In this document: positions 26,408-40,908 of the stretch, in pieces
Numbering within the stretch: the stretch's first letter is position 1
How the letters are laid out: the number at the start of each line of letters is the position of its first letter
Source of the DNA: Chloroflexota bacterium
GTDB taxonomy: Bacteria; Chloroflexota; Dehalococcoidia; UBA2247; RBG-13-53-26
Assembly: GCA_026389585.1 (NCBI GenBank)
Contig: JAPLHP010000061.1
Location: 1-43,207 of the forward strand
Length of the DNA stretch: 43,207 nucleotides
Direction: 5' to 3'
Translations under genes and position numbers: made by a program
The notes under the pieces: generated by a model
The model's input: only the letters and a program-made list of their open reading frames with translations
What the model was told of the DNA's origin: nothing
Databases searched by the model: none

Positions 26408-26995
26408 TCAGTCGATGATGCTTTTGGTGCTGGGCACTCTGCCCCTGATGCGCTCGTCGAATTGAGTGGCTGCATCCAGTGCCCGCGCCAGTGCCTTGAA
26501 GGTGGCCTCTGCCTTGTGATGATCGTTGCTGCCCCTGAGCAACTTGGTGTGCAGGTTGATTCTGCCTTCAGAGGCAAAGGTCTCCAGAAAATGGCACACC
26601 AGATTGGCAGGCAAATCGGTGATATTCTTCTCATCGAAGGGGATCTCTATGACGGCATATCCCCTGCCGCTGATGTCGACCGCTACCAGGGCCAGGGCAT
26701 CGTCCATGGGTACTATGGCGTGAGCCATCCTCACAATGCCCTGCTTTTCACCCAGTGCCTGATTGAAGGCGCGTCCCAGGCAAAGCGCCACGTCCTCTAC
26801 CAGGTGATGGGAATCAGACCCCGTAGCGGAGACCTTGAGGTCAAAGGATCCGTGCTGGGAGAGTTGGGCCAGCAGATGGTCAAACATCCTTATCCCGGTG
26901 GTGATCTCGGAATCACCCTTGCCATCGATCACCAGCTCCAGACTGATGCACGTCTCCTTGGTTTCACGCTTGATGACCGCTATTCTCTTGGACAT
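26408..26995 (-). CDS. hisB: Imidazoleglycerol-phosphate dehydratase
   Basis: 195 residues. It catalyses the sixth step of histidine synthesis (IGP to imidazole acetol phosphate) and is Mn-dependent in a 24-mer. The two-fold repeat with metal-binding motifs is visible: [30 protein letters not shown], and in the second half [20 protein letters not shown]. It lacks the HisB phosphatase domain found in enterics. The other his genes seen here are hisC and hisG/hisZ, 4-15 kb away, so the pathway genes are scattered. It has GGAG before the ATG at 26995. Confidence 0.95.
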
Positions 26996-39495: not shown

Positions 39496-40908
39496 TTAAT
39501 TCTTCTCTACTGTTTGACGCAGTATCTCGATGAATTTATCGATCCTCTTTTGCCTGGATTCGTTGCTGACGGTGCGTGCGCTTCCAATAAGGCATGCGGA
39601 TGACTCAAAGAGAGTGTCAATAATCTTGAGGTTATGTTGAGCTATAGTGCGCCCGGTCTGTGTATTCTCAATAAGCATGTCTGCATCTTCAGGCAGGAAG
39701 GCCTCACTTGCTCCCCATGTGGGGAGCAGCCGGTAGGGGCTGAGATGGTTGTCCCGGGCATACCTGTCGGCAATGTTGATATACTCGGAGGCTATCCTCA
39801 GAGTAGAGAGGCTTTGCTTTCTCAATGGTACTCTGAAATCCTCGGGGCTGTTGAATGGCAGCTTCTTACTTACTACAGAGACTATTCTTACCTTACCATA
39901 ACCTAAGCTCAGGATCTTCTTTGCTGGACTGGAGGGGAATCTGTACAGGTGGTCATAGAGCCAGTCTTCGCCGGTGATAGCCAGATCGAAATTCCCATTG
40001 GCGACCTGCAGGGGCATATCCTGGGGTCGAATGACCTTTATGCAGACTCCCTCTAGATTGATACTCGGGCGACGCGGCTCTTGAGCACAATAGGAGACTT
40101 TAATGCCCGCTTTTTCCAGGAATTCGAGAGTCGGTTCTTGTTGGTGCCCGTCAGGGAGAGCTAACCACAACGCAGAATCTTGTTGTGTAGGGAGAGAAGA
40201 AGGCTTCTTTGTACTGTCCACTACCCTCTTTGATCCTTCACTCCCGGGTTCCTCCATTTTGGCGGCGGTGCATAGGCGATCAAGCAAGAAACCCATGTCC
40301 TTGGATTCCCAACTGCGCCGGTGAGCAATCAAGAAGGTGCTTGAGCAAAGAATGGAGGTCAAAGGAAGTAAGCCATAGTTAAGGAGGGTATCCGGCGTCA
40401 GAGAGATTAAAGCCAGATCAGCGCTTTCCGGGGGATAGATTTCGGCCCCTCCCCAGAGAGGGAAAATGCTGAATCTCCTCAGCCTCAGGTTCAGAGCGAA
40501 CAATTCGGCCATGTTAGGGTACTCTGTTGCTATACGTATTGTTTCTGTCCTCGTCTTCAGGTCATCGATCGATGTTATTCGGGCGGCCCTGCCGGCGGCT
40601 ACACACAAATCTCTTTTGCCGTATCCCAGATCTTTCACCTTGACTACAGCACTGCTGCCGTATTTAGACAGGAGTTCTTCCACCCAATCCTGGCCGCAGA
40701 TTCCCAGATCGTAGTTTCCGACCGCTACCTGAATGGGTATGTCCCTTTCATTGAATATCTTCAAGAAGAGGTCAGGGAAGTTGGTACACTGGGGCCTGTA
40801 GGAGCGGGACTGTTCATCGTAGCCGCTAAGCTCCAGACCTGATTCTTGGAGTATAGTGCCGGTTGGGCGCAGGAGGCGGCCCTTAGGAAGGGCTAGTTTT
40901 ACTTGCAT
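39496..40908 (-). CDS. hisG: ATP phosphoribosyltransferase with two fused HisG domains
   Basis: 470 residues, about twice the short HisG. It catalyses the first step of histidine synthesis (ATP + PRPP). Half 1 (1-215) and half 2 (246-470) align along their length: LALPKGR (5-11) with LALPDGH (249-255); a DIPIQVAVGNYDLGICGQDW block (56-75) with DMPLQVANGNFDLAITGEDW (297-316); LGYGK in both; IATEYPN with IASEYIN; LWGGAE with TWGASE. Half 1 keeps the KGR motif but has LTPDT where the PRPP loop normally reads STGxT. Half 2 lost KGR but keeps TQTGRT. A Pro/Ser-rich linker joins them. It overlaps the HisZ-like gene by 26 nt. Confidence 0.9.
   Translation of the reverse strand: MQVKLALPKGRLLRPTGTILQESGLELSGYDEQSRSYRPQCTNFPDLFLKIFNERDIPIQVAVGNYDLGICGQDWVEELLSKYGSSAVVKVKDLGYGKRDLCVAAGRAARITSIDDLKTRTETIRIATEYPNMAELFALNLRLRRFSIFPLWGGAEIYPPESADLALISLTPDTLLNYGLLPLTSILCSSTFLIAHRRSWESKDMGFLLDRLCTAAKMEEPGSEGSKRVVDSTKKPSSLPTQQDSALWLALPDGHQQEPTLEFLEKAGIKVSYCAQEPRRPSINLEGVCIKVIRPQDMPLQVANGNFDLAITGEDWLYDHLYRFPSSPAKKILSLGYGKVRIVSVVSKKLPFNSPEDFRVPLRKQSLSTLRIASEYINIADRYARDNHLSPYRLLPTWGASEAFLPEDADMLIENTQTGRTIAQHNLKIIDTLFESSACLIGSARTVSNESRQKRIDKFIEILRQTVEKN

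Follow-up and report, generated by a model that had tools for sequence, protein, structure and literature searches.

A tandem HisG protein of Dehalococcoidia as a probable pseudo-dimer with one composite active site

The window analyzed here, the whole stretch of 43,207 nucleotides from contig JAPLHP010000061.1 of a Chloroflexota bacterium, holds on its reverse strand a 470-residue frame that opens with ATG, has no internal stop and is matched twice by the HisG profile PF01634 (Table 1). The two PF01634 matches score 94 and 115 bits singly and 204 bits in all, each above the 25.5-bit gathering score, and TIGR00070 matches the protein over two stretches with 242 bits (cut-off 75.75), which places it by sequence in the HisG family above the curated cut-offs. 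Both halves can be aligned end to end with solved HisG chains, and together with the double profile matches this confirms the two HisG units in one frame that had been proposed in a sequence-only reading of this DNA, the motifs quoted there being all present as written: PKGR (residues 8–11), ISLTPDTLL (168–176), PDGH (252–255) and ENTQTGRT (414–421). The halves share 28% identity (62/219) with one another, and the fused protein 24–26% with single HisGs, a deep divergence. A Pfam search gave no match to PF08029 (HisG_C) in the fused protein.

Table 1. Positions of the fused HisG, its parts and accompanying histidine genes in the window, with the evidence for each
Feature	Position	Strand	Evidence
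Double-domain HisG, 470 aa	39496..40908	-	two PF01634/TIGR00070 matches in one frame; AlphaFold pLDDT 91.9, pTM 0.89
Half 1, residues 1-222, HisG fold without PRPP loop	40243..40908	-	alignment to solved HisG, AlphaFold, motif counts
KGR of half 1, residues 9-11	40876..40884	-	KGR in 36/69 homologues only
Arg35, equivalent of P. arcticus HisG Arg56	40804..40806	-	alignment; motif counts; role from PMC9734150
Degenerate PRPP-loop position of half 1, residues 169-176	40381..40404	-	[TS]Gx[TS] in 0/69; entropies 2.6-3.3 bits; following helix absent in model
Linker, about residues 218-245	40174..40257	-	variable in 69 proteins; pLDDT about 50
Half 2, residues 246-470, HisG fold with PRPP loop	39499..40173	-	alignment, AlphaFold, motif counts
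PDGHQQ of half 2, residues 252-257, invariant PKGR replacement	40138..40155	-	G and H in 69/69, D in 68/69
Glu402, equivalent of P. arcticus Glu163 (PRPP 3'-OH contact)	39703..39705	-	invariant in 69/69; role from PMC9734150
Intact PRPP loop ENTQTGRT of half 2, residues 414-421	39646..39669	-	[TS]Gx[TS] in 69/69; helix 420-424 follows in model
HisZ-like gene, 422 aa	40883..42151	-	PF13393 195 bits; TIGR00443 201 bits, under the 271.65 cut-off
hisB (imidazoleglycerol-phosphate dehydratase)	26408..26995	-	PF00475 184 bits at 26477-26899

Directly upstream of the fused hisG, and overlapping its start by 26 bases, lies a HisZ-like gene that is conserved at this place in relatives. Since a separate, true histidyl-tRNA synthetase is encoded elsewhere in the genome (contig C36, 491 bits), the HisZ-like gene is free to be HisZ. 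The presence of hisB in the same window indicates a histidine pathway, and HisI, HisD and HisA/HisF-type proteins are encoded in the same source genome (G000, 1.93 Mb, 95% complete), in which a profile search found no second HisG. In relatives the fused gene stands within hisZ-hisG-hisD-hisC-hisB runs, and in two of them (L038, L052) it precedes hisD, a gene for an aminotransferase of the class to which HisC belongs, and hisB. As the sole HisG of its genome, accompanied by other his genes and set in a his operon in relatives, the fused gene thus, judging activity from context, most likely encodes the enzyme that carries out the first step of the histidine pathway. Growth in minimal medium, for which this first step would have to work, has been reported for a Dehalococcoides strain (PMC5764234).

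Two HisG matches were found, by our count, in 37 of the 54 HisG-bearing genomes among 60 relatives and share a single frame except in G054, and all named relatives are Dehalococcoidia or unplaced Chloroflexi metagenome assemblies. The surmise that the fusion is a lineage-wide trait proved right: across the class Dehalococcoidia, HisG occurs in 372 of 393 genomes, roughly 210 of them with two matches and 157 with one, numbers that are hand counts of matches per genome, not of confirmed single frames. A profile of the full-length protein recovered the whole double protein in 22 of the 27 in-class genomes with a match (527–732 bits); among 173 other Chloroflexota genomes it recovered none, at most one half being matched, with ≤127 bits. 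Six single-contig genomes with 20–30 reductive-dehalogenase matches each, which we infer from their size and gene content to be Dehalococcoides and Dehalogenimonas, all carry the fused HisG. Phylogenetic trees place half 1, half 2 and the class's single HisGs in one fully supported clade each, and when other Chloroflexota are included both halves stand jointly apart from all singles (support 100/95). This topology, from a tree without a distant outgroup root, agrees with a single duplication and fusion, inherited vertically thereafter.

Other arrangements were met in the same survey. In G054 the HisG halves lie in overlapping, different frames (L022, 675-1370 and 1345-2040), either a natural split into two subunits or a frameshift in this metagenome assembly, whose family holds no other genome for comparison. 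A member of another Dehalococcoidia family (G331; L053, 1486-3066) encodes a HisZ-HisG fusion in one 527-residue frame, with PF13393 at 16-302 and PF01634 at 371-522. Many single HisGs of the class (L004, L006-L008, L010-L016, L072-L079, L118) carry HisG_C, the mark of the long form (three were checked, one of these falling below cut-off), yet adjoin a HisZ-like gene, a combination that is unexpected under the short/long scheme.

To compare motifs, 69 double proteins were aligned and their halves were then set against 41 single HisGs. The PRPP loop [TS]Gx[TS] is present in half 2 of all 69 proteins and in all 41 singles and absent from half 1 throughout (0/69); column entropies at this position amount to 2.6–3.3 bits in half 1 and are near zero at T, G and T in half 2. 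The arginine that corresponds to Arg56 of Psychrobacter arcticus HisG is distributed the other way round, occurring in 66/69 first halves, 1/69 second halves and 40/41 singles, so that the full catalytic set of PRPP loop and trans arginine is complete only in the pair and in neither HisG domain by itself. Glutamate at the Glu163 position is kept by 57/69 first halves (Glu156), 69/69 second halves and 41/41 singles, and half 1 has invariant residues of its own (Y30, D56, G64, Y66, E78, R142, G153). The first loop follows another pattern: KGR is found in 36 of the 69 first halves, with K9 kept in 60, and in second halves it is replaced by [D/N]GH in every case, while the single HisGs have K (25), D (8) or N (5) at the first KGR position and mostly S, E or A at the third. 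The doubles from a search of the phylum, some of which overlap the first set, show the same pattern except for three with lysine at Arg35. These are the Dehalococcoides-like closed genomes G063, G027 and G101 (L132, L133, L134), which also have cysteine at Arg38.

The complementary motif loss that had been read from the window protein is therefore real, but its terms change. The altered loop of half 1 and the retained loop of half 2 hold across the homologues, and the reciprocal loss is that of the PRPP loop and the Arg56 equivalent rather than of the PRPP loop and KGR. That half 1 keeps KGR and half 2 lacks it is true of this protein; the former extends to little more than half of the homologues, however, and the latter is a replacement by an invariant motif and not merely a loss. 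Complementarity by KGR was set aside because this motif varies both in half 1 and in single HisGs. Conservation is stricter for PDGHQQ of half 2 than for KGR of half 1, which on sequence grounds suggests an altered but working first loop in an active half 2; this substitution is the least understood feature of the fused HisG.

AlphaFold modeled the whole fused chain with a pLDDT of 91.9 and a pTM of 0.89, and on these values the two halves are predicted to keep a fixed arrangement. The model matches PDB HisG structures with TM-scores of up to 0.88 (by target), as expected of a HisG fold, and no solved tandem HisG was among its top PDB matches. A helix follows the PRPP loop in half 2 (420–424) and is missing from half 1. 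The model thus supports two HisG folds packed against one another.

The published geometry of HisG offers a frame in which to place these losses. Arg56 of one P. arcticus HisG subunit extends over the dimer interface as far as the PRPP pyrophosphate in the partner's site, and Glu163 contacts the PRPP 3'-OH; R56A costs 42-fold and R32A 25-fold in activity, and Arg32, which belongs to KGR, is not described as coming from the other subunit (PMC9734150). The two active sites of A. baumannii HisG occupy the crevice formed by head-to-tail subunits (PMC10795190). By analogy with these homologous dimers, Arg35 of half 1 would contact the PRPP loop of half 2. The half-2 cleft would then be complete, having its own PRPP loop and Arg35 from half 1, and the half-1 cleft would be dead on both counts, as it lacks a PRPP loop and would receive no arginine from half 2: the exact pair of losses expected if one of two sites is abandoned.

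We consider it likely, as the best reading of sequence, model and analogy, that the fused HisG is the sole ATP phosphoribosyltransferase of its host and an obligate pseudo-dimer with one composite site per chain, built from the half-2 cleft and Arg35; what we infer here comprises the geometry of the site, enzymatic activity, the part played by half 1 and the oligomeric state. Duplication of an ancestral hisG and fusion of the copies would date back at least to the ancestor of many Dehalococcoidia lineages. Half 2 would be the catalytic half, with ENTQTGRT, Glu402 and a new, invariant D-G-H-Q-Q for K-G-R, having lost the arginine that it would have donated to the now dead half-1 site. Half 1 would no longer bind PRPP in its own cleft and would act as dimer partner, its Arg35 reaching into the half-2 site and stabilizing the leaving pyrophosphate. 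Each chain would have one active site as against two in a HisG homodimer. The enzyme probably owes its activation and feedback regulation, as in the short forms, to the HisZ-like protein encoded just upstream, in an oligomer that presumably consists of a HisZ tetramer and two fused chains. The tree, the conservation across the class and the structure model all speak for the duplication, fusion and pseudo-dimer already suspected from the sequence; a site shared between the halves is likewise expected, though not one in which the KGR of half 1 completes half 2. Some observations stand against the composite site. G027, G063 and G101 have lysine for Arg35, and the P. arcticus enzyme did not accept R56K. 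A few residues beyond the site where the Arg56 equivalent has been lost, in the downstream direction, half 2 still has Arg279-Arg280, and this pair could take its place. Half 2 also lacks both K and R of KGR, despite the cost of R32A in P. arcticus, so that another residue, perhaps His255, must compensate.

Half 1 might have a regulatory task besides, its loop-less cleft binding a nucleotide or another effector and controlling the half-2 site, with or without HisZ. Such a role is compatible with the composite site and would add to it, and a full HisG fold with its own invariants and a mostly retained Glu156 is more than a scaffold seems to need. A gene for a HisZ-like protein, HisZ being the usual regulator, is however present and many half-1 invariants may serve the interface, and we regard the proposal as possible rather than probable. 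A fuller version, in which a half-1 pseudoenzyme both supplies the trans arginine to a one-site pseudo-dimer and senses an effector in its vacated cleft, half 2 using DGHQQ for the leaving group, is speculative and somewhat doubtful. That the KGR of half 1 acts in trans on the PRPP loop of half 2, one site thus drawing on both halves, would suit the window protein, which has KGR only in the one and the PRPP loop only in the other, and the frequent retention of K9. We find it improbable, given that little more than half of the first halves have the full motif, that its R position varies in the singles of the class too, that Arg56 and not Arg32 is the P. arcticus residue described from the other subunit (PMC9734150), and that the invariant [D/N]GH suggests that half 2 uses a first loop of its own. 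The invariant DGHQQ in the loop-bearing half and the low identity to single HisGs could also mark a paralogue that has moved to another substrate and is no ATP phosphoribosyltransferase; for the only HisG of a genome with HisI, HisA/F, HisB and HisD, located in his operons in relatives and in a group with a Dehalococcoides reported to grow in minimal medium (PMC5764234), this would be very surprising. An error of assembly or reading frame that merged two neighboring genes, for which the split frames of G054 might be cited, or chance, is refuted by a one-frame fusion with both halves conserved in many independent genomes from several projects, several of them closed single contigs.

In ATP phosphoribosyltransferase, a textbook example of an allosteric enzyme, an arginine acts across the dimer interface, and the need for the dimer is usually probed by mutation. 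Evolution seems to have run the dimer experiment itself, by making a covalent dimer with exactly one complete site. The fused HisG would thereby provide a clean system in which to separate cis from trans contributions, would let one study the activation of a single site by HisZ, and opens a route to follow a catalytic subunit on its way to a pseudoenzyme. Annotation is corrected for Dehalococcoidia, organohalide respirers included. Among open-licence papers we found nothing relevant on HisG in Dehalococcoidia or on tandem or heterodimeric HisG, and in reviews on gene elongation and on fusions among his genes the passages found say nothing of a duplicated hisG. A class-wide ATP phosphoribosyltransferase variant with one composite site per chain, its activity and geometry predicted from sequence, model and analogy, is thus apparently undescribed.

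Compared with the known forms, the fused HisG is closest in several respects to the short form HisG_S, which works with HisZ (P. arcticus, A. baumannii, T. maritima, L. lactis): it has the HisG fold in both halves, the PRPP loop and the trans arginine, a HisZ-like gene next door and no HisG_C domain. HisG_S chains, however, have one domain of about 200–230 residues and form symmetric homodimers with two sites, whereas the fused chain has two domains in 470 residues that would share one PRPP loop and one trans arginine; where the HisG_S hetero-octamer combines four HisZ with four HisG, four HisZ and two fused chains are predicted. With the long form HisG_L (E. coli, M. tuberculosis, C. jejuni), which is the form found in other Dehalococcoidia, it has the catalytic fold and, presumably, the reaction in common. 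Unlike HisG_L, it carries a second HisG domain in place of PF08029 and would not be a homohexamer of identical catalytic chains. The same pathway offers a precedent in which a dead enzyme copy has turned into a partner subunit; in the fused HisG the dead copy would be HisG itself, covalently attached to its active twin.
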